From IMG/VR virus record IMGVR_UViG_3300023110_000048, positions 1 through 49,585 of that record: a stretch of 49,585 nt of DNA; one strand, written 5' to 3'. Each line of letters begins with the position of its first letter. Within the stretch, counting starts at the first letter, position 1. This document shows, piece after piece, positions 23,596 through 48,828 of the stretch. This DNA comes from a virus. The notes under the pieces were generated by a model that saw only the letters and a program-made list of their open reading frames with translations, was not told the origin of the DNA and searched no databases. The translations under genes and the position numbers were made by a program.

Positions 23596-23686
23596 CGTCG
23601 TGCTCCGTATTGGAGTTAGTAAAAATTGTAAGCTAAATTGCCTACAGTGTGTCAGCAAAGCTAAATGCCTTACTGTATAAAAACTA

Positions 23687-23715: not shown

Positions 23716-23731
23716 CACTTTTTTTATCTTT

Positions 23732-23941
23732 TTACCTAATAACTTTAAATTTCTTTCCACCAATTACTTCGTAGCGTACAACCTTCAAGCTACTAGCAGT
23801 TTCTACCTTTTGTGCTCCACCATTCTCAAACGCCCTTACCTGTGCTGTTTTTACATCAGCGTCCAGTCTAGCACTCTTCATCATGCCCTTGTTGCTGTAT
23901 GTGCCAATTGCTCTGCTGTAAAATGTTTCTTGCTTTTTCAT
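23732..23941 (-). CDS. Small basic protein, paralog of the gene at 47985
   Basis: 69 aa. Shares with the 76-aa protein at 47985-48215 the core MKSARLDADVKTAQV, then AFENGGAQK and SSLKV, ending in KFKVI. AGGA SD, own promoter. Two diverged copies 24 kb apart in one window suggest a useful early-phage family. Function unknown. Confidence 0.7.
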   Translation of the reverse strand: MKKQETFYSRAIGTYSNKGMMKSARLDADVKTAQVRAFENGGAQKVETASSLKVVRYEVIGGKKFKVIR

Positions 23942-29257: not shown

Positions 29258-29917
29258 TTAGAATGTAATACCGTTATTCTTTGAGAACCAGTCCTCATTG
29301 ATATAAGCAATCTCATAGTTGTCTTTGTCACGCTCCAAATGTACCTGTACAGTATTACAGTTTGTTGTAATCTTCCTGCCAGTTGTTCTGCGTAGCTCCT
29401 CCTTTTCGTTGAGGATATTGCGTAGCTCATTAGCCACATAAGTTGTATCCACTTTTACAATGAGGACACAAAGCTCTTCGTGGAAGATGCCAAAGTAGTG
29501 ATCCACCCCAGCATAAGCATCAATAGCCTCATGGGTATAAGCTCCGTTATACACACCTTTCGCCGTGTAGAGGGCAAATCGTGTGCCGTTAGGGCGTAGT
29601 TCCTGTCGTAAGTTGCGAGCTTCTTTGTCCCCAATAGCGTTGGACTTGTATTCTGCCATGCGTCCTGTTGAGGGGTCATAAGCATCGCTGCCGTATGCCT
29701 CAGAGTCTTTACCAGCTGAGATCTTTTCGTGTGCTACATGGCCCAGCTTCTCCGCCATAACAGGCTCACGCCACTTGGACTTGTCAGTCACCTTTGGGTA
29801 ACCTTCTTGCTTACCCTTCACATATAAAATATTAGCTACCTGCTCAAAGTCCATAATCTTTGCCAACTCTTCGTTGCTCGCACCTGCTAATAATTCTTTT
29901 AGTTGCTCAGCGTTCAT
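29258..29917 (-). CDS. Candidate PD-(D/E)XK restriction-type nuclease
   Basis: 219 aa. Residues ~65-105 read HEKISAGKDSEAYGSDAYDP then GRMAEYKSNAI: an acidic residue in a turn followed ~9 residues later by E-Y-K fits the D-(x)n-ExK catalytic core of type II restriction enzymes and related nucleases. A further helix/strand region follows (ALYTAKGVYNGAY, YFGIFHEELCVLIVKV). No recognition domain is identified. Own promoter (TTGACT/TACAAT) and AGGAG SD. A structural comparison would be decisive. Confidence 0.5.
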   Translation of the reverse strand: MNAEQLKELLAGASNEELAKIMDFEQVANILYVKGKQEGYPKVTDKSKWREPVMAEKLGHVAHEKISAGKDSEAYGSDAYDPSTGRMAEYKSNAIGDKEARNLRQELRPNGTRFALYTAKGVYNGAYTHEAIDAYAGVDHYFGIFHEELCVLIVKVDTTYVANELRNILNEKEELRRTTGRKITTNCNTVQVHLERDKDNYEIAYINEDWFSKNNGITF

Positions 29918-32774: not shown

Positions 32775-33683
32775 TTATTGATCTTTTGGTACACGGAGTT
32801 GTGCTAGGTGCCAAGTCTCAATTTTATCTTTTGATCCTTTTAGGTTGGTTAAAAACTCTACAGTTTTTGGATCGTTGAGGAAGCGACTCAATCCTTCAGG
32901 AGAAACTGAGTCAAATGGGTGAACAGATATTTTCGCCCATTCATTGTGAGCTTGCATAATCTCTTCAAATGATGCTGGTTTGACTTCTGCTGGCTTATTA
33001 GGATTAGTCAAATCAGGCTTGGCTATCAAATAGCCTTTTCCAATTCGTTCTATTCCATTCTTACCTTTAATAATTTTTGCTCCGTTAGCAGGACCAAAGG
33101 TTTCTCTATCACTACCCATTACTTGGAAAACATCTTCACGTCCTGTGCTTCCAGTAATACCAACAACAATCAATCTTTTATCTGGCAGTCTATCAAATAC
33201 TTGTATACCAGCTCTAATCATCTGAGGTTTGATATTATCAAACGTACGATATGATGCTTCGTCAAATGGAGTTGCTGTAGTTACTACCCATACACCATTG
33301 CTTGTTTTTGTTTCTTTTATGGTAGCTATAATTTGTTTAGCAACTGCTTGAGCTTGAGTTGTTTTTACAAGATTGATAGTAGCTTGATGTTTAGTAGTAT
33401 CTTTTCCTGTAATTGGTCCTAAGAAAACATGCTGGTTGCCTTTATTAGCGTGAGGTCCACTAGGATCTCTTCCTTGGCGAGTGTCTAATCCTGACGCATC
33501 TAGATCTGCTTTGATTCCCTCATCATTTGTTTTGATATCTTGTCCGCTCATGATTATTCTGTGAGCTTGCGGACTCATCTTGAGAAGAGCGTATATCATA
33601 GACTTTCCAGCCTCGACATATTCTACAAGATTATTGTGCTCATTAATGATATCTAAATAATATCGCATATTTGGTGGGTACAT
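32775..33683 (-). CDS. Hypothetical protein with capsid-targeting-like N-terminus
   Basis: 302 aa. Starts MYPPN and then MRYYLDIINE, the same MRYY opening as two proteins at 17-19 kb, ending in I-x-E. Body alpha/beta (TINLVKTTQAQAVAKQIIAT, GVWVVTTATPFDEASYRTFD); no family recognised. A GATAAATA late-type box lies 26 bases upstream, over the previous stop codon, and AGGA precedes the ATG. A head-packaged protein is the best reading. Confidence 0.65.
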   Translation of the reverse strand: MYPPNMRYYLDIINEHNNLVEYVEAGKSMIYALLKMSPQAHRIIMSGQDIKTNDEGIKADLDASGLDTRQGRDPSGPHANKGNQHVFLGPITGKDTTKHQATINLVKTTQAQAVAKQIIATIKETKTSNGVWVVTTATPFDEASYRTFDNIKPQMIRAGIQVFDRLPDKRLIVVGITGSTGREDVFQVMGSDRETFGPANGAKIIKGKNGIERIGKGYLIAKPDLTNPNKPAEVKPASFEEIMQAHNEWAKISVHPFDSVSPEGLSRFLNDPKTVEFLTNLKGSKDKIETWHLAQLRVPKDQ

Positions 33684-33709: not shown

Positions 33710-33717
33710 TATTTATC
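33710..33717 (-). promoter_or_regulatory. Variant late promoter
   Basis: GATAAATA on the minus strand, overlapping the stop of the methylase-N-domain gene and preceding the MRYY-type protein at 33683. A late signal inside the early region supports the virion-protein reading. Confidence 0.4.
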
Positions 33718-34192
33718 CAAAATCAAATAAACTATTAATATGTTCCTCTTGTTTTTCTACAGCAGTCTTAGTGTCACCATCAAAACGATAGTGATACTCT
33801 AAGGCATCAGCACACACTATATTTCGCTCAACAACGGGCCTAAATTCTTCACGGGTACAAAGTAACCGCTCTCTACATAAACTCACGTTGTCGGGCATCA
33901 GATCAACTCCATATATCGTCGATAGAGCTGTCTCGAAATCTATACCCGCCTCCAGCTTGCGGATGAGCACCTCGGATAAGAATTGTCCATCACCACAGGA
34001 TGGATCAAGAAATGTTTTGGTTGGGTCTGTAAATAATTCTGGATCTAGTTTATCCAATATCTCTTGTACCAGTGGTGTAGGCGTAAATACTTCGCCCGTA
34101 GCTTTGACTCTTGTTTTCTCACGATCTATACCGCTCATATATTCTCTGTCCCGCATATGGGCAATATATTGCTTCATAGATTTTGTTGTCAT
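33713..34192 (-). CDS. Free-standing N-terminal domain of N6-adenine methyltransferase, clamp-peptide tail
   Basis: 159 aa. GEVFTPTPLVQEILDKL then motif I FLDPSCGDGQFL (~residue 60) and IYGVDLMPDNVSLC. The frame ends before any NPP[YF] catalytic motif, so it lacks motif IV. The last residues INSLFDFG resemble a sliding-clamp-binding peptide. Similar short proteins occur in other marine phages, so it is probably not a recent truncation. ATGA-coupled to the next upstream methyltransferase. Confidence 0.75.
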   Translation of the reverse strand: MTTKSMKQYIAHMRDREYMSGIDREKTRVKATGEVFTPTPLVQEILDKLDPELFTDPTKTFLDPSCGDGQFLSEVLIRKLEAGIDFETALSTIYGVDLMPDNVSLCRERLLCTREEFRPVVERNIVCADALEYHYRFDGDTKTAVEKQEEHINSLFDFG

Positions 34193-35355
34193 ATAGTCTC
34201 TGTTATGTGATTAATTTCCTCATCAGTAAGGTTGAAGTATTGATATAGTTCGTCATTGGTCCAATACCTATCTAACGGAACTCCTTTAAAGTGAAATAAA
34301 AATGCTGTTCTTTCTCCTCTTCCTAAAATTTTATTCAAAAATAGTTGCAGGTTACAATTTAATAAATGTACCAATCGTTCGCCCTGCTCATCTGAATCTG
34401 TAGGAACAGTTACAATCATATTTTTATTACCAGCAACTATTTCGTAGTCATAATTTACAACAGCTCTATTACCAAAAGCAGCAACAAATACTTTGGGCCT
34501 GCCAGCAAACTTATGTCGTTCTGTTACAGCAGGAATTGTATCTAAAGTTCCATCAGCATTTATAGCATCAACAACTTTGCTATCTCCAGATCCAACAGTT
34601 ACGCTAGTACCAGCACAACACCATACAGCATTATACGGATTTGCTTTATAAGAAAATGCTTTTGATATAATGCTTCGTGTAATAGGATTAGACGCAGATA
34701 TAGTCAATACATTAACTTTAGTTAGTTCTTCTTGTCCATTGCCAAAAATAATTTTGTAATCATCACCTGATGATACTTTGTTCCTCATTATATAATAACA
34801 AAAAGTACTACCAACACCAGCAAAATGTTCTGTTTTAATTCGATCATCCATATTCAATAATTCTAGATCACCTACTGTGACTTTTGTTTTAGGACCAATA
34901 TGTCCTTTTTCAAAAGCAGTAGCAATAGCAGTAGGTGAAATAAGTGCTAATATACCATTAGGTTTTAACACTTCCATTCCTTTATTATGGAACTTAGCAT
35001 ATAAAGGAGTTTTACCATTACCTTTAAATGGTGGATTGCCAACCACAATGTCAAACTTCATAACAATATCTTCATTAATAAACTCACTTTTTGTGTATGT
35101 GCCTTTCAGTTTTAATCTGCCAACGGTTGTACGAATACGTAGATTGTTAGCCTCAAAACCAAATACTCTGTTCTTAATATTTTCTATGGAATGTCCAGCG
35201 TCAGCAAGCCTACGCTCTATAGCACTAACAAACTGCCCGCCACCAATGCTTGGGTCTAAAAATGTAGTAGTTGAGCTAGTCCAAACCTCAGTTGGAAAAG
35301 CATCAAGCATTGTATTTACTAAATCTTTTATATCAAAGCGTCTTCTTTGGAGCAT
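34189..35355 (-). CDS. N6-adenine DNA methyltransferase (TaqI/Eco57I-like), island copy 1
   Basis: 388 aa. N-domain with MLQRRRFDIKDLVNTMLDAF, motif I FLDPSIGGGQFV (~residue 33), GFEANNLRIR, and motif IV VVGNPPFKGNG (~105). A divergent middle and a C-terminal end of the shared type (YFNLTDEEINHITETI). Sixty bases after the helicase C-half gene, with no promoter but a perfect 13-bp hairpin between. Confidence 0.87.
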   Translation of the reverse strand: MLQRRRFDIKDLVNTMLDAFPTEVWTSSTTTFLDPSIGGGQFVSAIERRLADAGHSIENIKNRVFGFEANNLRIRTTVGRLKLKGTYTKSEFINEDIVMKFDIVVGNPPFKGNGKTPLYAKFHNKGMEVLKPNGILALISPTAIATAFEKGHIGPKTKVTVGDLELLNMDDRIKTEHFAGVGSTFCYYIMRNKVSSGDDYKIIFGNGQEELTKVNVLTISASNPITRSIISKAFSYKANPYNAVWCCAGTSVTVGSGDSKVVDAINADGTLDTIPAVTERHKFAGRPKVFVAAFGNRAVVNYDYEIVAGNKNMIVTVPTDSDEQGERLVHLLNCNLQLFLNKILGRGERTAFLFHFKGVPLDRYWTNDELYQYFNLTDEEINHITETI

Positions 35356-35374
35356 CTTGTCCTGGGTGAGGTGT

Positions 35375-35403
35375 GTTGCTATTTTCTGTTAGAAAATAGC
35401 AAC
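35375..35403. other. Perfect 13-bp hairpin between helicase C-half and methyltransferase
   Basis: GTTGCTATTTTCT-gtt-AGAAAATAGCAAC. Followed by CTTTTTTT on the + strand (terminator-like there). On the minus transcript it may be a processing or attenuation site within the operon. Confidence 0.6.
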
Positions 35404-35415
35404 CTTTTTTTATTT

Positions 35416-36747
35416 TTACTTAGCAGCATTAGCCATAGCAACCATCTCAGCGTGAGCTTCGTTGATAACACCAAGCTCAAATAATCCAGCTACTACATCA
35501 ACATCTACTTTGAAGTCAGCTACAAAGTCTGCTCTTAGCTCACTGCTATCCTTTACAGCAGCAAGTCCTGCTGACACTGTACCTTCGTCACTAGCGTATA
35601 GTACCATATCCAAGTGCTCTACAATAGCAGTAATAACTTCACGCACACGAGCGAGCTCCTTAGCAGCCTCACGCTCCTCAGCGTCAGTAGCCTCACCGTT
35701 CTTCTTCTTACCAGCAGCTTCTTTCGTCTTGCCCTTCTCAGCAACTTCTTGAAGTTCTGAGCGGAATGCTTCAGCATCACTAGCAAGTAACGCCTTCATC
35801 ATACCAACTGTCAACTTGTCAATGTCAGCCAACTTGCCAATCGCTCTGCTTACAGCACTTCTGTTCAGCGCATCTACTAGGTAGTCATCAGCAGCAATCT
35901 TGACAGCACCTTGTGCTTGGCAAGAGAACAAGTCCAATGTGTCAAGTACCTCAGCCATAATCTCCTCCATTGTCTTGGAAGGATTCTTCTTCTTTTCCTT
36001 CATTGCTGTTTCGAGGATCAAAGCATCAAACTTATCATCTCTGTTAGGATCAAAGCTGAGTGAGAAAATACGCCCTACCTTGTTCTCATCTGATGGAGTC
36101 AATGCTCGTGAAATCTTTTGTACAGTAGCACCAAACTGTCCACCGTCATAAGCTAGGTAAAGCTCTGTAATCTGTGGGATTGAGAATGAGCGCTGAGCTA
36201 AGTTAGAAGCAATAATAATAACTTGCTCTCCTCGTCTGTTAGCAAGTGTAATCTCGTCCAATACAATCTGCTGAGCTCGACGATTGTTTACTCTCTTGCC
36301 ATTGATCTCGTTGCCACCGTATAGTGTAACAATGTGGTAACCTGCGCCTAGTGCCTTCTTGAAAATGCGTCCTACCTCAGCCAAGTTCTCATTGCGGATC
36401 TTACCAAAGAAAAACATACGAGTTGGTAAATCTCTGTCAGCCAACTTACGACTGGCAAATGTTTGGCGCTTTACACTGAGCTCGGGAAGATTGTGCTTGC
36501 TCTCAAACATAGCTTGTAGCATTGAGATGAGGAAATTTTCAGCAAGCTCTGGGCAGGTAGCAAACTTGCTCCAGCTTGGAAGCAGTTTGAACTCGCTCTC
36601 TGGAAGAGTTTCGAGGACCTTGTTGACGACACCTACCAAGCTCATTTGGTAGCTCTCTACCTTTGCGACTTTCAAGTCACGCTTGGTGTCCAACGCAAAC
36701 ATTGTGTTTACAAAGTGCTTTGCCATTGTGTTTCTTTTAGCTGCCAT
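35416..36747 (-). CDS. C-terminal half of a split SF2 helicase
   Basis: 443 aa. Has the second RecA-like domain only: RMFFFGKIRNENLAEVGRIF, motif V-like QVIIIASNLAQRSFSIPQI, and motif VI QKISRALTP. No Walker A or DExD box is present. A Lys/Glu/Ala-rich insert (~330-350) precedes a helical end. The matching first domain is the 345-aa gene at 40.6 kb. In T4-like numbering this is not UvsW. AGGA SD and own promoter. Confidence 0.7.
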   Translation of the reverse strand: MAAKRNTMAKHFVNTMFALDTKRDLKVAKVESYQMSLVGVVNKVLETLPESEFKLLPSWSKFATCPELAENFLISMLQAMFESKHNLPELSVKRQTFASRKLADRDLPTRMFFFGKIRNENLAEVGRIFKKALGAGYHIVTLYGGNEINGKRVNNRRAQQIVLDEITLANRRGEQVIIIASNLAQRSFSIPQITELYLAYDGGQFGATVQKISRALTPSDENKVGRIFSLSFDPNRDDKFDALILETAMKEKKKNPSKTMEEIMAEVLDTLDLFSCQAQGAVKIAADDYLVDALNRSAVSRAIGKLADIDKLTVGMMKALLASDAEAFRSELQEVAEKGKTKEAAGKKKNGEATDAEEREAAKELARVREVITAIVEHLDMVLYASDEGTVSAGLAAVKDSSELRADFVADFKVDVDVVAGLFELGVINEAHAEMVAMANAAK

Positions 36748-36806
36748 TGTGTATCCTGTGTTGGATGTGTAAAAAGTGTTAGTTGCTGTCCTAACTGTAT
36801 GTATAT

Positions 36807-36834
36807 ATTATAACACCATTGCGGAAATAGTCAA
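36807..36834 (-). promoter_or_regulatory. Early promoter (helicase C-half operon)
   Basis: TTGACT, 16 bases, TATAAT. Leader hairpin GTTAG-gacagcaa-CTAAC (36778-36795), identical to that at 44.8 kb. Confidence 0.84.
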
Positions 36835-36885
36835 GCCTTTTTTTATTCTTTTTATAAAAAAAGTTGTCTTTTTTTCTCCGCTCAT
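36808..36885 (-). CDS. 25-aa micro-ORF in an orphan promoter cassette
   Basis: Starts in the same leader (CAGGGCTGACG before ATG) that precedes the methyltransferase at 38099, but reads only MSGEKKTTFFIKRIKKGLTI before ending inside the next promoter. Either a tiny basic peptide or the scar of a deleted methyltransferase gene. Confidence 0.3.
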   Translation of the reverse strand: MSGEKKTTFFIKRIKKGLTISAMVL

Positions 36886-36933
36886 CGTCAGCCCTGTGTG
36901 CTGTGGTGTTATGTATTACTTACTATACTTCTA

Positions 36934-36962
36934 ATTATATAGGAGGAGGGCGAAAAAGTCAA
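36934..36962 (-). promoter_or_regulatory. Early promoter without a normal gene (orphan cassette)
   Basis: TTGACT, 17 bases, TATAAT, same context as the methyltransferase promoters. Only a 25-codon ORF follows before the next promoter. Confidence 0.75.
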
Positions 36963-36980
36963 GTCTTTTTCTTATCTTTT

Positions 36981-38099
36981 TTACAGATTTTCAAAGAAAT
37001 TTTTCACTTCTTCATTCGTCCATAGACGATGGACATCAAAGGTAGGGCAGTAGTCAATGAGCACGGTGTTCTGTCCTCCGCGGATTCTACGGAACTCTTG
37101 GGCGAGGGCGACAAAGTATTCTGACAGCACAAATGATTTGATGTTCTCTACCTCAGCATCTGTTGTCACAGGATAGGCAAAGTATGATGGCCCATAGTCT
37201 CTGTCATCAACAATAATGTTTTCTTCTTTTAGGGCCTTTGTATTAGATATAATCAGTTTTTGTTCATTATGAAATACAGGCTGGCGTTTGGTGTATACGA
37301 AATATTCATTGCCTCTATTGTTACAATAAATTGGATAACAATGTTGTTCTGATTCTGTAGGAGAAAAAGCAGGTCCGTGATTGTTTCTTTTGAACATACG
37401 GTTATTTGCCTTCTTTGTGTCTTGACATAAATCCATTACTCTTTTATATACATCTATAATAGGATCTACAGTGTCATATATAAACTCACCTTTAGGAACA
37501 GTTATTGTCGAGTCATCATATACAACTTCTATATCACCGTCATAAGACTTATCTACAATCCAAGAACAAATCTTTATACCTACATTGAAATGATTATTCG
37601 CAGTAAAATCTACACGCTTCAAACCTTGTAAACCTAGTAATGAAAATCGTTTAGATTTTTCACATACTGAAGTAGGAGTGACCATAGCTACTACACTGCC
37701 AAGCTCTAATGCTTTCTTACAAAATAGATTATATATTTTATTCTGTCCGCCTTCTTTATTACCGTCTTGATATGGAGGATTGCCTACAACTACATCAAAT
37801 CTCATATCTGTGTCACTTTCAATAAAATCCTTTACTTCGTAAGTTCCAATTAATCGGTTTCGCCCAATAGTGGCACGGAGTCTCAAGTTGGAACTATCAT
37901 AGCCAAATACACGAGATTTGATGTTCTCCGCTGAGTGTCCTGCTTCTCGTAACCTTCGCTCAATTTCTTTTACAAACTGCCCACCGCCAATAGCTGGATC
38001 TAAAAATGTAGTAGTGGCAGAAGTCCACATCTCAGTTGGAAGAGCATCAAGTATGTTATTTACTACATCGGCTATACTAAATAGTCTTCTTTGGAGCAT
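36981..38099 (-). CDS. N6-adenine DNA methyltransferase, island copy 2
   Basis: 372 aa. Shared first ~100 residues (MLQRRLFSIADVVNNILDAL, motif I FLDPAIGGGQFV, VFGYDSSNLRLRA), motif IV VVGNPPYQDG (~107). The centre, probably target recognition, differs entirely from its neighbours. Ends HRLWTNEEVKNFFENL. The 5' ~180 bases are nearly identical to copies 3 and 4. Confidence 0.88.
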   Translation of the reverse strand: MLQRRLFSIADVVNNILDALPTEMWTSATTTFLDPAIGGGQFVKEIERRLREAGHSAENIKSRVFGYDSSNLRLRATIGRNRLIGTYEVKDFIESDTDMRFDVVVGNPPYQDGNKEGGQNKIYNLFCKKALELGSVVAMVTPTSVCEKSKRFSLLGLQGLKRVDFTANNHFNVGIKICSWIVDKSYDGDIEVVYDDSTITVPKGEFIYDTVDPIIDVYKRVMDLCQDTKKANNRMFKRNNHGPAFSPTESEQHCYPIYCNNRGNEYFVYTKRQPVFHNEQKLIISNTKALKEENIIVDDRDYGPSYFAYPVTTDAEVENIKSFVLSEYFVALAQEFRRIRGGQNTVLIDYCPTFDVHRLWTNEEVKNFFENL

Positions 38100-38150
38100 C
38101 GTCAGCCCTGTGTGCTGTGTGTGTTAGTTGTATTACTTACTATACTTCTA

Positions 38151-38179
38151 ATTATATAGGAGGCGGGCGAAAAAGTCAA
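38151..38179 (-). promoter_or_regulatory. Early promoter, methyltransferase class
   Basis: TTGACT, 17 bases, TATAAT in the repeated CCTATATAATTAGAAG context. Confidence 0.84.
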
Positions 38180-38229
38180 GTCTTTTTCTTATCTTTTTTT
38201 GGAAATATATTGCGTCAGTAACTGTTTTG

Positions 38230-39303
38230 TCATACAGTAGTTTCAATAATTTGTATTTCCTCATCAGTGAGGTTCCACTCACGGGCATACTCAAAGCCTG
38301 TCTTGATTTGTGACAAATCAATCTTCTTTAAAAATCGTGTACAATCTTTAGCAACACCTTTGAGCTTCATTTTTCTGTAAAAGTATCTTACCGCCTTATT
38401 GTTCTCAATAAGTAGCTTCAATGCCTCAGCCTCTTCCATTGTGTCTAGTGTAACACAACCTGTCATTGAGCCTGCGTAAGGCATATCTGTAACAGTATAG
38501 CTCTTCTTACTCTCTAGTAGAGTAAAGCAAAATCTAGGAGCAGCAGGAGCAGCATAGTTACCCATTTTAGCAGTCTCAACAGTAAAGTCGTTGCTCACTT
38601 TTGGCAGTCGAATTACAGTTTCAACACTACCTGTGCCAATCTTATGCTCAGTTGGACCAAACTCTCTATATGCCCACTCATTTACAGCAAACATCCTAGC
38701 ACAAATACCACCCTCAATTGACATTTCTGAGGACTTTAGTGCCTTACGCTCTACAAAGTATAGCGTATTATATTTCCACGCATCATACTCTGTCATCAAG
38801 TTGATGACATCTACTTGGTTACCATCTTTGATTAGGTCCTTGATAATAGCCTTTGGGCTTATAAAAGCCAATATGCCACCTGGCTTTAATATTGAAAGTG
38901 CCTTTTTCCTAAATGTTCTATATAGTGTTGAGTTGCCACCAGTGCCTCCAGTAGTCTTTTTGTCAGCATTGTTGAACGGTGGGTTACCAACTACTACATC
39001 AAAATCCATTAATACCTCATTGTCAATTAGATCCTTTACTTCGTATGTACCAACTAGCTTGTTACGTCCTTTAGCAGCACGGAGTCTCAAGTTGGAGCTA
39101 TCAAATCCAAATACACGAGATTTGATGTTCTCATCTGAGTGTCCTGCTGCTCTCAGTCTGCGCTCAATCTCTTTTACAAACTGCCCACCGCCAATAGCTG
39201 GATCTAAAAATGTAGTAGTGGCGGAAGTCCACATTTCAGTTGGAAGAGCATCAAGCATGTTATTTACTACATCAGCTATACTAAATTGTCTTCTTTGAAG
39301 CAT
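38230..39303 (-). CDS. N6-adenine DNA methyltransferase, island copy 3
   Basis: 357 aa. Same N-domain (MLQRRQFSIADVVNNMLDAL, FLDPAIGGGQFV), motif IV VVGNPPFNNAD (~107), a unique middle (KAIIKDLIKDGNQVDVINLM ...), and C-terminal WNLTDEEIQIIETTV like copies 1, 4 and 5. Own promoter copied with the 5' end. Confidence 0.88.
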   Translation of the reverse strand: MLQRRQFSIADVVNNMLDALPTEMWTSATTTFLDPAIGGGQFVKEIERRLRAAGHSDENIKSRVFGFDSSNLRLRAAKGRNKLVGTYEVKDLIDNEVLMDFDVVVGNPPFNNADKKTTGGTGGNSTLYRTFRKKALSILKPGGILAFISPKAIIKDLIKDGNQVDVINLMTEYDAWKYNTLYFVERKALKSSEMSIEGGICARMFAVNEWAYREFGPTEHKIGTGSVETVIRLPKVSNDFTVETAKMGNYAAPAAPRFCFTLLESKKSYTVTDMPYAGSMTGCVTLDTMEEAEALKLLIENNKAVRYFYRKMKLKGVAKDCTRFLKKIDLSQIKTGFEYAREWNLTDEEIQIIETTV

Positions 39304-39349
39304 CGTGCCCTGTGTGCTGTGGTGTTATGTATTACTTACTATACTTCTA

Positions 39350-39378
39350 ATTATATAGGAGGCGGGCGAAAAAGTCAA
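39350..39378 (-). promoter_or_regulatory. Early promoter, methyltransferase class
   Basis: TTGACT, 17 bases, TATAAT; sequence and leader nearly identical to those at 36.95 and 38.17 kb. Confidence 0.84.
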
Positions 39379-39397
39379 GTCTTTTTCTTATCTTTTT

Positions 39398-40498
39398 TTA
39401 GATATTTTCTTCGAGGAAGGCAATGTCATCAGCAGTCAAACCAAAGTGCTTATAAACTTCTTCGTTAGTCCAAACTCTAGTAAAATCTACAACGGGAAGG
39501 AATCTTGTCTGTGGGCCATCTATACTACGACTTGTTTTTGTTAGCTCATATAATGCTACACACAGATTAGATTTGAGATAAGTTCTAATGTTGTCAGCTT
39601 CAATCCTGTCCTTAGCAATAAGCTGACGATATGATCCTGGTATGCCTGTTCCAGGCTCAGTGAGCTCTACTGCCTGTAAATGACACTTGGCGTTAGACAT
39701 ATATGATGTAACTACACGATAGTTGTCAATGTCTCTGTCTAGCTTACCTGTCTCAATCTTATGTCCGTGTCGTGAAACATTAGCTATTACATTACCAATT
39801 TCATCAGTTAGCTTTACAGCCTTGAATCGTAAAATAGATTCTTTATTGTAGTATTCAGTTCCTGCCACTCGCTCAATCTTTTCAATTATGCTTTTAATTT
39901 GTCCATCTAACCAAATATCACCATCAAACTTTGGAGCACTATTGTCAGTAATAAAATATAATGTTTCTACTGTAACGCCTGGAAATGTTTCTGACGGTAA
40001 AAATTCTACAACACCTAAACCGTTATCGTTGATACGTTTTCGTAAGGAGCGGTAGTTGTTTGATTGAGCTAATGATGATGGAACAACAGCAGCAACAGTA
40101 TTGGACATATCCATTGCTTTGGAAATGAATTTGTCCCATAAAGTTGCTTTACCATTTGTACCATCTGTATATGGTGGATTCATTACAGTAACATCAAACT
40201 TCATATGGGTGTTTTCACTAATAAAATCCTTTACTTCGTAAGTTCCAATTAATCGGTTTCGTCCTTTAGTAGCACGAAGTCTCAGATTGGAACTATCATA
40301 TCCAAATACACGAGATTTGATGTTCTCTGCTGAGTGTCCTGCTTCTCGTAACCTTCGCTCAATTTCTTTTACAAATTGTCCACCACCAATAGCTGGATCT
40401 AAAAATGTAGTAGTGGCAGAAGTCCATATCTCAGTTGGAAGAGCATCAAGCATATTATTTACTATATTAGCTATACCAAATTGTCTTCTTTGAAGCAT
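39398..40498 (-). CDS. N6-adenine DNA methyltransferase, island copy 4
   Basis: 366 aa. N-domain MLQRRQFGIANIVNNMLDAL, FLDPAIGGGQFV, motif IV VMNPPYTDGT (~107); the centre includes LPSETFPGVTVETLYFI. Ends FGLTADDIAFLEENI. Promoter differs from copies 2 and 3 (TATACT -10). Confidence 0.88.
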   Translation of the reverse strand: MLQRRQFGIANIVNNMLDALPTEIWTSATTTFLDPAIGGGQFVKEIERRLREAGHSAENIKSRVFGYDSSNLRLRATKGRNRLIGTYEVKDFISENTHMKFDVTVMNPPYTDGTNGKATLWDKFISKAMDMSNTVAAVVPSSLAQSNNYRSLRKRINDNGLGVVEFLPSETFPGVTVETLYFITDNSAPKFDGDIWLDGQIKSIIEKIERVAGTEYYNKESILRFKAVKLTDEIGNVIANVSRHGHKIETGKLDRDIDNYRVVTSYMSNAKCHLQAVELTEPGTGIPGSYRQLIAKDRIEADNIRTYLKSNLCVALYELTKTSRSIDGPQTRFLPVVDFTRVWTNEEVYKHFGLTADDIAFLEENI

Positions 40499-40541
40499 CG
40501 TGCCCTGTGTGTGTTTGTGTTATTGCCTAACTGTTCTATAT

Positions 40542-40569
40542 AGTATAACACAGATGAGGAATAAGTCAA
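40542..40569 (-). promoter_or_regulatory. Early promoter, TATACT variant
   Basis: TTGACT, 16 bases, TATACT. Leader GTTA-ggcaa-TAAC hairpin. Confidence 0.7.
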
Positions 40570-40598
40570 CCAAATTCCTCATCTTTTTTTATTTTTTT

Positions 40599-41636
40599 TT
40601 AGGCAGCCAACGCTTCTTCAGCTCGTCGTCTGTTCATAAGCAGCTCGCCGTATGTTGTGGACACATAGCTATCTACAGCCCAGTCACCTACCGCTCGCTC
40701 AGTGTTGGTGCCTGTCATCAACAACACATAATCAGTGTTGTCAATCTCATTCTGTAGCAAGCTCGCCTGCCCTGCCTGATGGACACCAAAGTCAGCCTCG
40801 TCAACAATGAGCAACTTGGAAGCATTACGACCCATTACAAACTTGACACGCTCCTCACGCTCGCTGCCTGCGTTGATACCTAAGTATACAATAATCCGCT
40901 TGCCTGCTGCCAATGCTCCGTCAATCTGCTCTTGGTAGTTTGGATTGTTAGTTGTTTCGATATGCTCTAAGTCAGCAAACTGCTCAAACTCAACCAAGTC
41001 ACTTGCGAATGAAGTAAACACTGTTTTGACATATGAAGTAACAACAATCATATCTACGTTCATTACTTGCCCAACACCTGCGCTCCACAGTGTCTTACCA
41101 AAGCGAGCACAAAGTTCAGCAAATACAACCTTGTCTCCTCTGTTGTATGCCGCTAACACCTCGTCCATCATATCCATCTGTGCCGTGGAAAACTTTACAT
41201 CAATTCTAGCCTGCTTGTAGCTGGACAAGAATGTAGCAATGACAGGCTTGAGTGTGTCAAAGCTGGCAGCGTGGAATTCTGTACCTACTGACAAGTCATT
41301 GCTGAGGCGTAGCTCGTCAATCAAGTTACGCATCAAATCATCTAGCTTGGAATGCTTGCGGAATCGCTTGACGTGCTCTGCGTAGTCTGAGGCGTCCCAA
41401 ACTTTTACAAGTCCGTCAGCAGCCATTCTGTCATATACACCACCGCGTCGTGAAAAAGTAGAGCGTCTAATGTATGCCTTGACATCAGCCTCAGCTTCTT
41501 CAAGTGTCATTGGGATAGTAACAAATCGCTCACCAAACTTACACTTGCCTTCTGGACTGGACTCGTCTGCGAGTGTAGTGTCCATAACCAAGTAAACCAT
41601 CATACGTGACTTTTTAATGTTTGCATCTAGTGACAT
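40599..41636 (-). CDS. N-terminal half of a split SF2 helicase
   Basis: 345 aa. Walker A-like LCARFGKTLWSAG (~residue 183), motif Ia region MIVVTSYVKTVF, DEAD box LLIVDEADFGVHQAG (~275), motif III-like LLMTGTNTERA (~307), then the frame ends. No motif IV-VI. The ~160-residue N-terminal region is helical and charged. The 443-aa gene 4 kb away supplies just the missing second domain. AGGAG SD, own promoter; so it is a designed gene end, not a frameshift. Confidence 0.72.
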   Translation of the reverse strand: MSLDANIKKSRMMVYLVMDTTLADESSPEGKCKFGERFVTIPMTLEEAEADVKAYIRRSTFSRRGGVYDRMAADGLVKVWDASDYAEHVKRFRKHSKLDDLMRNLIDELRLSNDLSVGTEFHAASFDTLKPVIATFLSSYKQARIDVKFSTAQMDMMDEVLAAYNRGDKVVFAELCARFGKTLWSAGVGQVMNVDMIVVTSYVKTVFTSFASDLVEFEQFADLEHIETTNNPNYQEQIDGALAAGKRIIVYLGINAGSEREERVKFVMGRNASKLLIVDEADFGVHQAGQASLLQNEIDNTDYVLLMTGTNTERAVGDWAVDSYVSTTYGELLMNRRRAEEALAA

Positions 41637-41696
41637 AGTGTGTCTCCTGTGGAGTGTGTAAAAAATGTAAGCTCTTATGTCTTACTGTATGTATGT

Positions 41697-41724
41697 ATTA
41701 TAACATACCTTTGGAAAAAGTCAA
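41697..41724 (-). promoter_or_regulatory. Early promoter (helicase N-half)
   Basis: TTGACT, 16 bases, TATAAT. Leader hairpin GTAAG-acataagag-CTTAC. Confidence 0.84.
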
Positions 41725-41733
41725 GCCTTTTTC

Positions 41734-41841
41734 TTATCTTTTTTTATCTTTTTTTCTATTTTTTTCATCGAGGCTGATGATGAGGTTGTGTAGCATTCTA
41801 GCTGGGAGGAACTTTATTGTGCTGGTGTATCCTATTGACAT
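41734..41841 (-). CDS. 35-aa basic peptide
   Basis: MSIGYTSTIKFLPARMLHNL, then ending in a Lys-rich run encoded by the next promoter's A-tract (DEKNRKKDKKR). Good SD (AGGAG) and own promoter support translation. Unknown. Confidence 0.5.
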   Translation of the reverse strand: MSIGYTSTIKFLPARMLHNLIISLDEKNRKKDKKR

Positions 41842-41882
41842 GGCGTCTCCTGTGTGTTGCTGTATTACTTACTATACTTCTA

Positions 41883-41911
41883 ATTATATAGGAGGCGGGC
41901 TCAAAAGTCAA
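41883..41911 (-). promoter_or_regulatory. Early promoter, methyltransferase class
   Basis: TTGACT, 17 bases, TATAAT, CCTATATAATTAGAAG context. Confidence 0.84.
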
Positions 41912-41931
41912 GACTTTTTTTATCTTTTTTT

Positions 41932-41948
41932 GGGGAGGCATGCTCCCC
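41932..41948. other. GC-rich hairpin after methyltransferase copy 5
   Basis: GGGGAG-gcatg-CTCCCC just after the stop of the 425-aa methyltransferase on the minus strand, followed by an A-tract rather than U. Like the hairpins near 27.47 and 43.38 kb. Confidence 0.45.
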
Positions 41949-41963
41949 GTTGTGTGGAAGGAA

Positions 41964-43241
41964 TTATTTGATAGTGTTTTCGATGTAAGCAATCTCTTCA
42001 GCAGTAAAACCAAAGTGGCTATACAAGCTAGCGTCGTCTAACTTATTGTTATGGACATCATACTGTGGAATGCTATGACTCTTTACAGCAATACACCAGC
42101 CGTTAGTCTTTTTGTATGTAGCTGCCAAAAATCTAATTGCCTTAGATGAAAAATACTTGCGGTATAGTTCACCTTCATTCTTATCTTCAACTGGAAGATA
42201 ATACATCAACGCACCAAAAGCAGTAGTTGTGATTGGCATATTATTATCATCAGCGTCTTTATTGTAAAATGAGGAGCTAATGTTTAAGCCAATCTTTAAT
42301 ACACCGTCGTTACTAACAACTTTATTAGTGTAACCTTTGCCTCTTTTAGCTGATGACTTAATACAATCATATCTAAACTCAGCGTCAGCAACTTCGCTAA
42401 AGGTAGCATCTATACTATCGCTATCTCTGTCACCCATACCTAGCACAATCTGATCTGCTGATGATGTTATTTTGTTGTTGATGCCCTCAACAAATAACTG
42501 TTCTGCTGTCTTTGCGTAGCCGTCTGTAATATCATATGTTGACTCGCTGTCGTCAGCTAGTATAACGCGAGTATTACCTGTGTAAGCCTCTTTCTTTGCT
42601 ACAATAGCGGCTATTTCAATGCCTTGCTTGAAGTAGTTATCAGCTCTAGTATCTACTAGCTCAGTATTCATAACTGTTGTTAGTGCTGTTCTAACTGCTT
42701 TCGTAGCAGCATTGTTACCTTTTAGCCACCCAGTTGGTATAACCCATACCAAGTAACCACCGTCGGCTACAAATGTAATAGCTTTCTTTGTCAGCATGGG
42801 CCAAATCTTTTTTGTTACTTTCGTGCCTGGAATTGGCGCATCGTATGGTGGATTACCAATAACTACATCATACTTGCCTTTCGCAACATCATCTATACGA
42901 GTGATAATCTTAACACCCATCTTTTCTAACCACGCTGTCTTTTCTTTATCATCAGATAAAAATGTAATATTTTCTTGTGAAGTTTTTTCACCCATTAGCC
43001 TGTTTTGTTCAAGTAGCTCTAGCACAAATTCTACATTGTATAGCACTAGGATATTTTTTGTTGTATCAGCGTTCATAAGCATCTCTTCTACAAGCTCTTT
43101 AGTAAAAGCTCGTGGAGTATGAATCTTATGACTTGATGGCATCATATGATGCTTTTGTAGTTTTACAAGATGCTCCCATGCTTTATCAAACTTGGCGCTA
43201 ACAATAGCTTTGTAATCTACTGTATTTACTTTAGCTGCCAT
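41964..43241 (-). CDS. Divergent N6-adenine DNA methyltransferase, island copy 5
   Basis: 425 aa. IHTPRAFTKELVEEML matches the start of TaqI-type enzymes, and motif IV is clear (VVIGNPPYDAPIPG, ~residue 128). Motif I is unusual: ILVLYNVEFVLELL stands where F-x-DP-x2-G-x-G-x-F is expected, so SAM binding may differ or the protein may need a partner. The end is FGFTAEEIAYIENTI, shared with the island. Own promoter. Confidence 0.82.
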   Translation of the reverse strand: MAAKVNTVDYKAIVSAKFDKAWEHLVKLQKHHMMPSSHKIHTPRAFTKELVEEMLMNADTTKNILVLYNVEFVLELLEQNRLMGEKTSQENITFLSDDKEKTAWLEKMGVKIITRIDDVAKGKYDVVIGNPPYDAPIPGTKVTKKIWPMLTKKAITFVADGGYLVWVIPTGWLKGNNAATKAVRTALTTVMNTELVDTRADNYFKQGIEIAAIVAKKEAYTGNTRVILADDSESTYDITDGYAKTAEQLFVEGINNKITSSADQIVLGMGDRDSDSIDATFSEVADAEFRYDCIKSSAKRGKGYTNKVVSNDGVLKIGLNISSSFYNKDADDNNMPITTTAFGALMYYLPVEDKNEGELYRKYFSSKAIRFLAATYKKTNGWCIAVKSHSIPQYDVHNNKLDDASLYSHFGFTAEEIAYIENTIK

Positions 43242-43300
43242 TGTGTGTATCTCTCTTTGGAGTTATAAAAAATGTTAGTTTTCCTAACTGCTTAAATACT

Positions 43301-43328
43301 ATTATAACACACCTATGGAAAAAGTCAA
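43301..43328 (-). promoter_or_regulatory. Early promoter (methyltransferase copy 5)
   Basis: TTGACT, 16 bases, TATAAT. Leader hairpin GTTAG-gaaaa-CTAAC (43274-43288). Confidence 0.84.
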
Positions 43329-43400
43329 GCCTTTTTCTTATCTTTTTTTATTTTTTTTTATTTTTTTTTTTGGGGAGCGTCACCGCCCCCCTGTATGTTA

Positions 43401-44774
43401 TCAAAAAGTGGATAACTCTTCTACACTCATAGCTTCAACAATCGCCTTTGCTATTGTATTTTTGATGTCGCTTACACCATGGTCCATACCAAACTCGCGC
43501 TCTTCACCACCTTTGCTTGGCTCAGCCTTTTCAGCTACAACAGTTTCAATAGTTGTGGCGCTTACATCTGTGCCAGTGTCTTTGATGGCGCTAACCATAT
43601 TAGCAATCATATTTGATGTTGTGTCATCATCATTTACAATCAATGCCGTTACCATTGCGTATGTCTTCTTGCTTGGATCAGCTTTGAATAATCTTACAGC
43701 TCGCCCAATTGTCTGCTGTAATGTATCTTCAGCTAAGTTACGCATAATAACAACACCTGTTAGCCCGTCAACATCAATGCCTTCAGCCAGCATATTGTAA
43801 TGGAATACTAAAGCATTATCACAAGCTTTCAGCGCCGCAAACCACTTTTGGCGTGACATTTTGACATTGTCAACTCTAAAGCCTGTTTTAGATGTACAAG
43901 TAAAAACTTTGTGGTCGGCGTAATGCTTCTTGAAAGTAGCAATACTGTCATTTACTAGCTTGACATGAGCTGAGCCTTTTGTAGCAAACAAAATCTTGGA
44001 GCTACCAATTGTTGCTAAGCCACTTTCTACTTGCTTCTTAGCCGCTGCTACCATCTGGCTAACAGTGCTGTCGTCTGTGTTACCCTTGCTGTCAGCGTCA
44101 GTGTAGTAACTTACAACGTGAAGCTCTGGAGCAACAATGTAACCCTTAGCAATCATCTCAGCAGCGTCACGTACAAACCATCGCTTGCCAAATACATTTA
44201 CATTGTTGAGCCCTGTGCCTGTCATATTGTGTCGCTCAGTTGCTGTAAAAGTCAGCTTTACAGTAGCGTCAATATTGGACCAAGTCTCAAAGCGTGACGC
44301 ACCTACCAGCTTCTGTGCTTCGTCAGCCATAGCTAAGTCAAACTTGACACCTACCAACTCTGGCATGGAAGCGTAGCAGCAAAAAATAATTGTTGTGCCA
44401 CCTGCTTTGCGAGCTGCTTCTACAGCTACGCCAGCGTCAGTAGTTGTGCCCAAGTAGTTGGACCAGCTACTAAACAACTCTTCTTTTACTTCACCGGAGT
44501 TGAAGTTGATGGTGTTAAACTTACCGTCAATAGCAAAGTTGAAGTCACCTGCTAACTGGTGACACAAGCTAATAGTTGGAGCACCAATAAAAATTAGCTT
44601 GGCGCCGTTATTGCTTGCTACTAAGCTGATGTTAGCCTGCAGGATGCTTTTGCCAGCGCCTGTGGGCAGTACAAATCGACCACGTGTTTCGCCAGCAGCT
44701 ACCTTGCTCTCGTATGTAGCAAGTCCGTCTGTTTGGTGTTCGCGTAATGTAATGATGTTGTTTAGCTTTAGCAT
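43401..44774 (-). CDS. Complete SF2 DEAQ-type helicase
   Basis: 457 aa from ATG 44774 (SD AAGGGAA); the longer frame runs through its promoter. Motif Q-like LREHQTDGL, Walker A LPTGAGKS (~residue 40), DEAQ box (LAMADEAQ, ~145), motif III LTFTATE, V MLAEGIDVDG, VI QQTIGRAVRLF. Resembles type I/III restriction-type and UvsW-like motors. Transcribed immediately before the methyltransferase/half-helicase genes, so a role in the same system is suggested. Confidence 0.88.
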   Translation of the reverse strand: MLKLNNIITLREHQTDGLATYESKVAAGETRGRFVLPTGAGKSILQANISLVASNNGAKLIFIGAPTISLCHQLAGDFNFAIDGKFNTINFNSGEVKEELFSSWSNYLGTTTDAGVAVEAARKAGGTTIIFCCYASMPELVGVKFDLAMADEAQKLVGASRFETWSNIDATVKLTFTATERHNMTGTGLNNVNVFGKRWFVRDAAEMIAKGYIVAPELHVVSYYTDADSKGNTDDSTVSQMVAAAKKQVESGLATIGSSKILFATKGSAHVKLVNDSIATFKKHYADHKVFTCTSKTGFRVDNVKMSRQKWFAALKACDNALVFHYNMLAEGIDVDGLTGVVIMRNLAEDTLQQTIGRAVRLFKADPSKKTYAMVTALIVNDDDTTSNMIANMVSAIKDTGTDVSATTIETVVAEKAEPSKGGEEREFGMDHGVSDIKNTIAKAIVEAMSVEELSTF

Positions 44775-45002: not shown

Positions 45003-45959
45003 TTAAGAAAAATCAAATAAATTGTCTATGGGCTTGGGGGAGGGTTCAGCTATAGGATCACCCGTATCTACTGACTTGCGGATATCTAGCAGCACATCTG
45101 ACTCATACTTCTTATCTGGTGTTGTTCGCATATCCTTGTGGATCTGTGTAGTGAGCTGATGATCCTCTGGTGTAACGACATTCTCTGGCGCTGAGTCAAT
45201 TCTCAGTTTAGCTATGTCATAGTATTTTGTATCACGCTCTATGCCTATAAATGATCTGCCTGTGAGCTTTGCGGATACTCCTGCTGAGCCTGATCCCATA
45301 GTAAAATCTAATACAGTATCACCAGGATTAGAATATGTCATGATGAGCCAATTCAATACATTGGTTGGCTTCTGCGTAGGATGAACTGTCTGCTGCGCTG
45401 AAAAGTTTCTAGATCCATGTAGGATTGACTTGGGCTTTCGTGTTCCTTCATTCTCTCCGCCAGTATATATTTTACCTTTGCTACCAAAACCAAAGCCGTG
45501 TGTATTTGTTCCTGTGCCGTAGCCATCAGGATTATGTCTCTTGTATGGATCACCCTCTTCCATAATAGGATTGTATGTGCCGCCTGATTGACGAGCGAAC
45601 ACCATAATATTCTCATGAACTTTCTGTGGGCGATACTTTGCTAGTCCAGGGCTACCACATTTGTTTTTGTTCCATATCAGCTCGTGGCGAAACCAGTCTA
45701 GCTTTGAGACTATCAGTAAAGCAGAGAATGGTTGGCTACCGAAAAATACAATGTTTGCTTGTGGCTTACATACACGCTCAAGCTCACGCCATAACCTTCC
45801 AAAGTCTAATACTGTATCCCATTCAATAGTAGTAGTGCCATACGGTGGATCGTTACAAACCATATCCACCGAAGCGTCCTCAAGTTGTTCGAGGACGCTA
45901 AAGCAATCATCGTTGTGTAGTGTTATCATTTCAAGATTTAAATAATGAACGGGAATCAA
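45003..45959 (-). CDS. Beta-class amino-methyltransferase (N4-C or N6-A) with clamp-peptide tail
   Basis: 318 aa. Motif order IV then I: CNDPPYGTT (~residue 35), TRD in the middle, then HPTQKPTNVL and VLDFTMGSGSAGVSA (~220), the beta-class arrangement. The C-terminus is IDNLFDFS. Start ATG 45959 has GGAG 6 bases upstream; an alternative in-frame ATG at 45929 is possible. Overlaps the preceding gene. Confidence 0.87.
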   Translation of the reverse strand: MIPVHYLNLEMITLHNDDCFSVLEQLEDASVDMVCNDPPYGTTTIEWDTVLDFGRLWRELERVCKPQANIVFFGSQPFSALLIVSKLDWFRHELIWNKNKCGSPGLAKYRPQKVHENIMVFARQSGGTYNPIMEEGDPYKRHNPDGYGTGTNTHGFGFGSKGKIYTGGENEGTRKPKSILHGSRNFSAQQTVHPTQKPTNVLNWLIMTYSNPGDTVLDFTMGSGSAGVSAKLTGRSFIGIERDTKYYDIAKLRIDSAPENVVTPEDHQLTTQIHKDMRTTPDKKYESDVLLDIRKSVDTGDPIAEPSPKPIDNLFDFS

Positions 45960-47095: not shown

Positions 47096-47983
47096 TTAAG
47101 GGCCGTAATCAAACAAAGTATTAGGCAGTTCTGCGTGTTCAGCTACAGTTAGCCTATCTTCGGCAATTTTTACATAGGTAGGATTTAGCTCTATTCCAAC
47201 AAAGTCATGCCTGCAACTTAGGGCAGCAACCCCCGTGCTACCACTACCACAGTATGGATCTAAGACGCATCTTCTGCCCTCAGGAGTATAGATACGAACA
47301 AGCCACTCCATTAAATCTACAGGTTTGGGCGTAGGATGTGAGTTATCCTCACCTCGATCCTTCCGAGATACACGGGGGGCATAAAAATACTTTTGATGCT
47401 CATATAGATCGAATAGTCCTACTACGTTTGACGGATATCTGCCGTTAGGATCAGCATTGACTTTGTGAGTTGTCTGTCGTTTGGACTTCTCAACCTCTCC
47501 GCCAAAAGCTCTGCGCTGATGTCCACCTGACACATAGGTAGGAGTCTTTGTGTTCCACGGGATGCGATTGCCTTCTATACAGACAGTCCCTGTCCCCCAG
47601 CGTTCTATATTCTCTCGTATCGTTCTTTCAGATATCGGCTTCTGTGCTACTGCTATGGGCTCGTGTGCGGGCTTTAGTTTATTAGCTTTAGCCATTTTAG
47701 TTGTTACGATCCACGTTAGCATATCGCGAATGATAAACCCGCCATCCTCCATATAGGTAGCCATACGATGGTATAGCTCAGGAGAACAAAAGGACAAGCA
47801 CCAAGCGCCAGGCTTGAGGACACGATGAACTTCAGCCCATAGCTCTGAGCTTGGAAGCTCGTCGTCCCATTCGGCTATATTCATTTGATAAGGTGGATCA
47901 GTGATACACACATCTATAGAGTTGTCCGTAAACTGTCGCAACAATTTAGAATTGTCGCCACAGTATAGTTTCCAACGACTCAT
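47096..47983 (-). CDS. Beta-class amino-methyltransferase with clamp-peptide tail
   Basis: 295 aa. ITDPPYQMNIAEW (~residue 29), middle TRD (RIPWNTKTPTYVSGGHQRRA), HPTPKPVDLMEWL and VLDPYCGSGSTGVAA (~240). Different target region from the 45-kb enzyme. The C-terminus is LPNTLFDYGP. Weak SD; starts 2 bases after the previous stop, so it is read through from upstream. Confidence 0.88.
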   Translation of the reverse strand: MSRWKLYCGDNSKLLRQFTDNSIDVCITDPPYQMNIAEWDDELPSSELWAEVHRVLKPGAWCLSFCSPELYHRMATYMEDGGFIIRDMLTWIVTTKMAKANKLKPAHEPIAVAQKPISERTIRENIERWGTGTVCIEGNRIPWNTKTPTYVSGGHQRRAFGGEVEKSKRQTTHKVNADPNGRYPSNVVGLFDLYEHQKYFYAPRVSRKDRGEDNSHPTPKPVDLMEWLVRIYTPEGRRCVLDPYCGSGSTGVAALSCRHDFVGIELNPTYVKIAEDRLTVAEHAELPNTLFDYGP

Positions 47984-48223: not shown

Positions 48224-48541
48224 TTATTTCATTGAATCAATCATATCAGCGATAGTTTCTGGTTCAAATGTAGTAAAGGCTCTTCCTCTCCCTCCCTGCA
48301 TTGATTCTATAGTTCCGCCATCGCCTGGGTTTATACTAACAATAAATTTCTTACCATCGTCTCGAGTGACGATCATTTCATAACCACGGGGTGAGTCGTT
48401 GTGTTCTACTTCCCATCCCCTATCAAATTGGACCTCTTCCCAATCTTGGAAACGTTTGTCCCAATCCCTGCCAGACTGTTCTGACTCTGTTGTTTCTAAT
48501 CCAGCTAGCTGTCGTAGTCTGCCTAGTTCATTTAGTCTCAC
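48224..48541 (-). CDS. Small protein with shared N-terminal LRxLAGLE signal (105 aa)
   Basis: GTG start overlapping the previous stop (GTGA), AGGAG SD. N-terminus RLNELGRLRQLAGLE is like that of the next upstream gene (RLQELAGLE), suggesting a common targeting peptide, perhaps for the phage head. The body is a small alpha/beta domain (GYEMIVTRDDGKKFIVSINP). Unknown. Confidence 0.6.
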   Translation of the reverse strand: MRLNELGRLRQLAGLETTESEQSGRDWDKRFQDWEEVQFDRGWEVEHNDSPRGYEMIVTRDDGKKFIVSINPGDGGTIESMQGGRGRAFTTFEPETIADMIDSMK

Positions 48542-48828
48542 CAACTGCTCCTGTCTCTTCTATGCGATTCATCTGGAATATGTGCTGCTTCTTCTGCGTG
48601 TGATAATACACTTTTTAAATGTTGAATAGATTTATATACCAAATCAAACTCTTTCGTCTCTCCTCCAGCTCGTTTAGTATGGCGGTGTAAAAAGCTATCT
48701 TCTCTGAATAGCTCTTCTAGTTTTTTGACATTGACATTAGCTTGAATGAATAAACCTTTAGCTTTCTCAGAAGCATAAGCATCTTCTTCCAATCCTGCTA
48801 GCTCTTGTAGCCTATCTAATGCTTCCAC
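48538..48828 (-). CDS. Small helical protein with N-terminal LQELAGLE signal (96 aa)
   Basis: GTG start after AAGGAG. EALDRLQELAGLEEDAYASE, then long helices (NVNVKKLEELFREDSFLHRH). Coupled to the following gene. The shared N-terminal octamer suggests joint targeting. Confidence 0.6.
   Translation of the reverse strand: MEALDRLQELAGLEEDAYASEKAKGLFIQANVNVKKLEELFREDSFLHRHTKRAGGETKEFDLVYKSIQHLKSVLSHAEEAAHIPDESHRRDRSSW

Follow-up and report, generated by a model that had tools for sequence, protein, structure and literature searches.

Type ISP restriction-modification enzymes such as LlaGI and LlaBIII arrange their parts in the order nuclease, motor, coupler, methylase and recognition (PMC4666363), and in CglI the endonuclease and the helicase are separate subunits (PMC5737866). 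An island of helicase and methyltransferase (MTase) genes comparable to these enzymes was found at 33.7-44.8 kb on the minus strand of the marine phage record IMGVR_UViG_3300023110_000048, whose full length of 49,585 bases was analysed (hereafter the window) and which also carries T4-type replication genes (a UvsW-like helicase at the left end, a primase and a DnaB-like helicase). Read right to left, in order of transcription, the island consists of P0008, M7, P0006, M5, M4, M3, P0002, M1 and Ndom (Table 1), all with intact open reading frames. Judged from sequence comparison, we lean towards regarding the island as a restriction-modification-like machine of several subunits, borne by a phage and able to take on further specificities. 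The best explanation, held with the same modest degree of confidence, is a virus-borne relative of Type ISP and Type IIG restriction-modification enzymes with changeable specificity at multiple sites.

The likeness to Type ISP lies in a nuclease-like domain, a superfamily 2 (SF2) motor, a linker at the position of the coupler, a gamma-type adenine MTase and a recognition part, which follow one another in the same order. Single-chain relatives such as ME01 (1074 amino acids, aa) hold all these parts in one protein, and both ME01 and L126 (1144 aa) keep the order N-domain, helicase, MTase. Unlike Type ISP, the window system is cut at two joints into three polypeptides, which are fused only in some relatives, a GIY-YIG/T5orf172-like domain stands in place of the Mrr-type nuclease, a separate Ndom protein is present, several MTases accompany one motor, and the carriers are viruses. 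No sequence match of the island proteins to any solved Type ISP structure was found. The island would work like a restriction-modification enzyme. It shares the SF2 motor and the gamma-type MTase with recognition part with Type ISP, but it falls outside that type for want of two defining features, the single chain and the Mrr nuclease. As for Type IIG, the PADLOC model REase_MTase_IIG (PDLC03626) matched the helicase (E 3e-32) and the MTase (E 4e-35) of the gut phage NatCom_35866, covering its helicase and MTase parts, and weakly matched P0006 in the motor region (E 0.006). In contrast to the single-chain Type IIG enzymes, the island has separate chains, a virus-restricted branch, Ndom and arrays. 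CglI likewise places its motor on a separate chain, but that motor is unsplit and is accompanied by neither an Ndom nor an array. The helicase-MTase modules of the cyanophages S-CAM7, Bellamy, ME01 and ACG-2014f, annotated as helicase, DNA methyltransferase and hypothetical protein, contain the same or equivalent genes and the same Ndom; unlike the window, each has one MTase and no array, and in S-CAM7 CC03 the two motor halves adjoin. Bacterial swapping of specificity (Type I hsdS, Type III mod) combines a constant part with an exchangeable recognition part, whereas the island swaps the catalytic NPPY half too, keeps all copies as intact genes in an array and is carried by a phage.

The identity of each island gene was confirmed by motifs and Pfam/PHROG matches. 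The NPP[YF] MTases matched Pfam Eco57I with E values of 5e-9 to 7e-11 (one at 9e-6), and this match together with profile matches to CamA, M.TaqI, BrxX and RM.BsaXI assigned them to the gamma-type adenine MTases. An S-adenosylmethionine (SAM) motif I followed by NPP[YF] is present in M1, M3, M4 and M5, whereas M7 has NPPY only and Ndom motif I only. Thus the original prediction of five NPP[YF] MTases, an N-domain without NPPY, a complete SF2 helicase and two half-helicases on one strand was right about the genes, although not about their forming a single set: M7, which has no motif I, goes with the P0008-type helicase, so two helicase systems are mixed among the MTases. Nor are the two half-helicases separate enzymes, since P0006 and P0002 are the two lobes (RecA1 and RecA2) of one SF2 motor and not two broken helicases. 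P0006 carries Walker A (ARFGKT), DEAD and TGT motifs, and its AlphaFold model (predicted local distance difference test score, pLDDT, 88) matched SF2/Snf2 RecA1 lobes in Foldseek (E 9e-7); P0002 carries motifs V/VI, AQRSFSIPQITELYLAYDGGQFGATVQKISRALTP.

In a collection of annotated phages, the sole matches of P0006 and P0002 were the neighbouring genes gp53 and gp54 of Synechococcus phage S-CAM7 isolate 0809CC03, with genes for a methylase and an Ndom homologue next in line. Used as single-sequence queries against viral contigs, P0004, P0006 and P0002 gave no match. Relatives were found with two-sequence profiles, each built from the window protein and its S-CAM7 homologue, which detected RecA2 in 46 loci and RecA1 in 78 loci (the contigs are metagenomic, and the locus sets, which overlap between scans, were de-duplicated by contig or sequence). 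In nearly all loci of the close branch, RecA1, RecA2, MTase and Ndom are contiguous on one strand in this order, with RecA1 and RecA2 either separate or joined in one protein of about 750 aa. The split form is conserved in gp53/gp54 of S-CAM7 CC03 and in many contigs, and the motor and the P0006-type N-domain keep their invariant residues in nearly all relatives. When the N-half of the MTase alone was used as query, seven loci were found and all seven carry the same helicase. The homologues are therefore neighbours in nearly every relative rather than independent and scattered. In two scans covering 84,980 genomes of bacteria and archaea no RecA2 relative was found, and RecA1 relatives were limited to two, on 4-7 kb contigs of metagenome-assembled genomes. 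This is strong evidence that the family is virus-restricted, although not absolute, since these genome scans were pattern-based. The gut phage NatCom_35866 (locus L006) has a T5orf172-helicase, an Eco57I MTase and a 260-aa Ndom homologue, and upstream of these lies a gene for an AAA ATPase (FGKNGAGKST); this set is a relative of the island system outside marine phages.

The N-terminal 125 residues of P0006 fold as a separate unit (confident model, pLDDT 92, order b-b-a-a-b-a). Y15, K33, G35, D81, D99, D100, R103 and H122 are invariant among its relatives, and at the sites relevant to GIY-YIG the window branch has Y15, K33-F-G35, R58 (R/K in relatives), D99/D100, R103 and H122. This domain was not directly recognised by Pfam/NCBIfam searches, no Mrr-family match was found in it, and a profile comparison of P0006 relatives with the isolated T5orf172 domain of the gut phage gave no match. 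Distant members of the helicase family show the canonical pattern YxYT...KxGQT...R...D..IH...EW, and three of them match Pfam T5orf172 with E values down to 1.7e-8. Because a profile built from these distant relatives is matched by window-type N-domains (E 1.7e-6, probability 90%), the assignment of the P0006 N-domain as GIY-YIG-like and as a putative nuclease is supported but not proven. The absence of a fused nuclease, as originally stated, is thus probably wrong on the grounds of topology and profile match.

An orphan protein at 29258-29917 (minus strand) with a PD-(D/E)xK-like stretch, GSDAYDPSTGRMAEYKS, seen by eye only, had been named as the nearest nuclease candidate. It was rejected as the missing nuclease subunit, as it has no phage homologue, occurs in none of the related loci and does not accompany the island set. 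PD-(D/E)xK-like genes with a weak Mrr_cat match were observed in ACG-2014f (L129, 6381-6983), Bellamy (L005, 9731-10294) and S-CAM7 SB42 (L136, 3782-4393), where they adjoin a P0008-type helicase, an MTase and Ndom, and may encode separate nuclease subunits.

The MTases of the island are organised as cassettes. M3, M4 and M5 share 82-88% amino acid identity up to NPPY and 23-28% after it, and M1 is an older copy (N-half 65-67%, C-half 22-26%). At the DNA level, identity is about 80-100% over promoter, leader and N-half and falls to background from the NPP codon on. The same contrast was found in three further loci with two or three MTases and in L051 (IMGVR_UViG_3300025139_000012), which has the order RecA1, RecA2, five tandem MTases and Ndom, with N-halves 92-96% and C-halves 23-46% identical. 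Divergence in place is incompatible with a C-half at background level beside an N-half of 85-95% identity, and the two halves have different nearest relatives: the N-half of M3 is closest to M5 (88%) and its C-half to the L051 MTases (42%), while the third MTase of L026 has its N-half closest to its siblings (79%) and its C-half closest to L034 (69%). The sequences thus indicate that recognition/catalytic C-halves are exchanged as cassettes. DNA methylation by these MTases is likely.

One repeated strong sigma70-type promoter design precedes most island genes. The pattern CTTGACT-N15-19-TATAAT has 15 exact matches in the window (0.04 expected), all on the minus strand and nine of them in the island. 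The early promoter predicted for most island genes is borne out by this count, except that M1 and Ndom have no sigma70-type promoter of their own and M5 has a near match (TATACT). The orphan copy of the repeated promoter/leader unit upstream of P0002 is probably the footprint of a lost cassette, and both orphan copies look like such footprints. Between P0002 and M1 (35375-35403), where a promoter would stand, there is a 13-bp perfect hairpin (GTTGCTATTTTCT / AGAAAATAGCAAC), which is terminator-like on the plus strand and possibly serves RNA processing on the minus strand.

Across the loci, Ndom keeps SAM motif I in nearly all cases and NPPY in none. Among the MTases, motif I is degenerate in about a third, most of which retain NPPY. 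Broken NPPY was found in three of the four loci without Ndom and in two of the 41 with it (Fisher p 0.003, from few loci and with categories chosen after seeing the data). All 15 loci with only motif-I-less, NPP-positive MTases carry Ndom (hypergeometric about 0.18, alone not significant). These patterns are the setting of the hypothesis that Ndom completes the SAM/active site of the MTase in trans. In the loci L008, L009 and L039, which are without Ndom, motif IV of the MTase is broken (NPNF, APPF and NPAH) and the motor is intact; these are possible recognition-only versions. A second hypothesis concerns the C-terminus of Ndom. The tripeptide [LIM]F[DESQ] occurs within the last 14 residues of half of 48 distinct Ndoms, compared with 1.3% of internal 14-residue windows, and in the tails of 5/55 MTases and 0/28 RecA1 proteins. 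The C-terminus of RB69 DNA polymerase (...KKASLFDMFDF), which binds the sliding clamp, is resembled by the Ndom tail of the window (...INSLFDFG), and this LFDF-like tail might tether methylation to the replication clamp. Two further MTases of the N6_N4_Mtase family, at 45003-45959 and 47096-47983 on the minus strand, end in DNLFDFS and NTLFDYGP, like Ndom and RB69 DNA polymerase, and are possible clamp-tethered methylases.

Three S-CAM7 isolates, whose flanks are 97-99.6% identical, differ at one locus in the module that they carry. The three modules are non-homologous, and every one of them abuts the start codon of a shared Ndom (93-95% identical). These modules are the split GIY-YIG-like helicase with an MTase (isolate CC03), a fused helicase with a motif-I-less MTase, and a PD-(D/E)xK-like protein with a motif-I-less MTase and a P0008-like helicase. 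The modules replace one another beside a constant Ndom, an indication that one Ndom can go with either a P0008/M7-type or a RecA1/RecA2-type module, of which the window has both. The P0008 helicase family is common in cyanophages (424 phage records).

In the proposed mechanism, P0006 and P0002 would form an ATP-driven DNA translocase, with which any available MTase subunit would pair by its constant N-half. Because each MTase would supply one target site, an array would place marks on the phage DNA at several sites at an early stage of infection. On DNA without the marks, for instance that of a superinfecting phage or of the host chromosome, the same MTase would provide recognition and the motor translocation, and the DNA would then be cut or blocked; such action against unmarked DNA is probable. 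All MTases would share Ndom as a partner, which might complete the SAM site in trans and might link methylation to the clamp through its tail. This Ndom would also serve P0008 with M7 as a second, alternative module. Thanks to the constant N-half and the repeated promoters, recombination could add, delete or swap recognition halves. The fullest form of this proposal is tentative and on balance unlikely to hold as a whole: a virus-restricted diversification system, in which one split motor/nuclease serves methylase cassettes that have constant SAM-binding halves and exchange their catalytic/recognition halves between viruses, and in which an Ndom with a clamp tail supplies in trans what the methylase active site lacks and ties marking to replication, so that the phage marks its own DNA at many changeable sites and attacks unmarked competitors.

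Several observations weigh against the restriction-like explanation. Foldseek of the P0006 N-domain against the PDB gave no significant match (E > 1), and its named viral matches in BFVD, although enriched for GIY-YIG/T5orf172, were not significant (best E 0.06). As the conserved K33, G35, D99, D100, R103 and H122 also differ from the classical Tyr/Arg/Glu set, the N-domain may be a binding domain. Furthermore, the clamp-tail idea for Ndom rests on a short motif, four loci have no Ndom, the RecA halves of the window are separated by three MTase genes, unlike in all relatives seen, and neither an MTase nor an Ndom was detected near some distant fused helicases (e.g. L102, L106, L108, L109). The main rival is marking without cutting, in which the array shields the phage DNA from numerous host restriction enzymes, the motor merely helps the MTases to find or move between sites, and the N-domain is a DNA-binding relic. 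This rival, to be taken seriously although unlikely, gains from the non-canonical active site without significant fold match, from the arrays, which multiply MTase genes and never motor genes, and from the multiple methylases of jumbo phages, interpreted as protection against several host systems (PMC7824862). It is opposed by the invariant residues kept in motor and N-domain, by the PD-(D/E)xK-like nuclease gene in the same operon of other cyanophages, and by L008, L009 and L039, where retention of the motor with broken NPPY and no Ndom suggests that it is useful beyond methylation.

A restriction-like attack on the host chromosome, feeding nucleotides to the phage while methylation shields phage DNA, would fit the early-type promoters, the motor with its nuclease-like domain and the virus-restricted distribution, but alone it leaves the diversification of specificity and the swapping between isolates unexplained, and is considered improbable. 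A chance cluster of unrelated replication/repair helicases (UvsW-like) beside orphan MTases, or of decaying restriction-enzyme remnants, might be suspected from the commonness of the P0008 family, the split helicase and an Ndom without NPPY. However, gene order and split are conserved across divergent viruses with motifs intact, the island reading frames are complete, and the S-CAM7 modules are replaced as units at one locus; with the operon conserved, this explanation is largely refuted and very improbable. BREX (bacteriophage exclusion) was also considered and rejected: no PglZ phosphatase-like protein or BrxC-type large ATPase was found in the window, which has no open reading frame above 500 aa, a view limited by the contig ends, and the PADLOC matches of the tested island proteins were confined to MTase domains and motors. 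The initial proposal of a modular modification, anti-restriction or exclusion system is hence retained in its modular, modification/restriction-like part, owing to the conserved operon, and given up in its BREX-like part.

If the restriction-modification explanation is true, the island would be a phage-restricted form, with changeable specificity, of what is usually viewed as a bacterial weapon; it looks like a phage means to keep changing which DNA gets marked as its own. In the open-access literature searched, no description was found of the split helicase, the T5orf172 helicase-methylase or a phage MTase array, nor of the modular design with a constant docking half, an exchangeable recognition half and a shared motor. 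With the three S-CAM7 isolates there are cultured models for a possible use against host restriction, host DNA or rival phages. The array also points to a way, taken in nature, of obtaining methylases whose specificity can be swapped.

Table 1 Genes and repeated DNA units of the island
Feature	Coordinates	Strand	Description
P0008	43401..44774 (TTG start possible at 44846)	-	Complete SF2 helicase, ResIII E 7e-12; cyanophage-helicase-related
M7 (P0007)	41964..43241	-	NPPY MTase without SAM motif I; type accompanying P0008-like helicases in cyanophages
P0006	40599..41636	-	RecA1 half of split SF2 motor with N-terminal GIY-YIG-like domain (putative; residues about 10-125)
M5 (P0005)	39398..40498	-	N6-adenine-type MTase cassette; motif I LDPAIGGGQF; NPPY
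M4 (P0004)	38230..39303	-	MTase cassette; intact motif I; NPPF
M3 (P0003)	36981..38099	-	MTase cassette; intact motif I; NPPY
P0002	35416..36747	-	RecA2 half of the motor of P0006, with C-terminal helical region of ~180 aa (coupler-like position)
M1 (P0001)	34189..35355	-	Older-diverged MTase cassette; intact motif I; NPPF
Ndom (P0009)	33713..34192	-	SAM-binding domain only; motif I LDPSCGDGQF, no NPPY; N6_Mtase E 6e-6; tail INSLFDFG
D1, constant N-half repeat	37774..38073	-	Copies at 35030, 37774, 38978, 40173; 65-88% to reference
D2, repeated promoter/leader unit	39307..39398	-	Copies at 36891, 38108, 39307, 41840, 44912
Orphan D2	36891..36982	-	No MTase behind; tandem with P0002 promoter
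Second orphan D2	41840..41931	-	Tandem with P0006 promoter

Outside the island, otherwise unrelated proteins encoded on the minus strand at 17127-17966, 18001-19401 and 32775-33683 (the last after a short leader) start with MRYY(E/L). This start looks like a T4-type capsid-targeting N-terminus; for the product of 17127-17966, which is methylase-like with an NPPF motif, that would imply packaging of a methylase. Two adjoining small proteins (48224-48544 and 48538-48828, minus strand) have a common N-terminal RL(R/Q)(Q/E)LAGLE-like motif, perhaps virion-targeting too. The product of 23242-23763 (minus strand) has five near-identical DPFAEEIVGGLGPANTNI repeats after a signal-peptide-like start, and 48854-49303 (minus strand) encodes a Staphylococcal-nuclease-like protein (SNase Pfam E 4.5e-7), also with a signal-peptide-like start.

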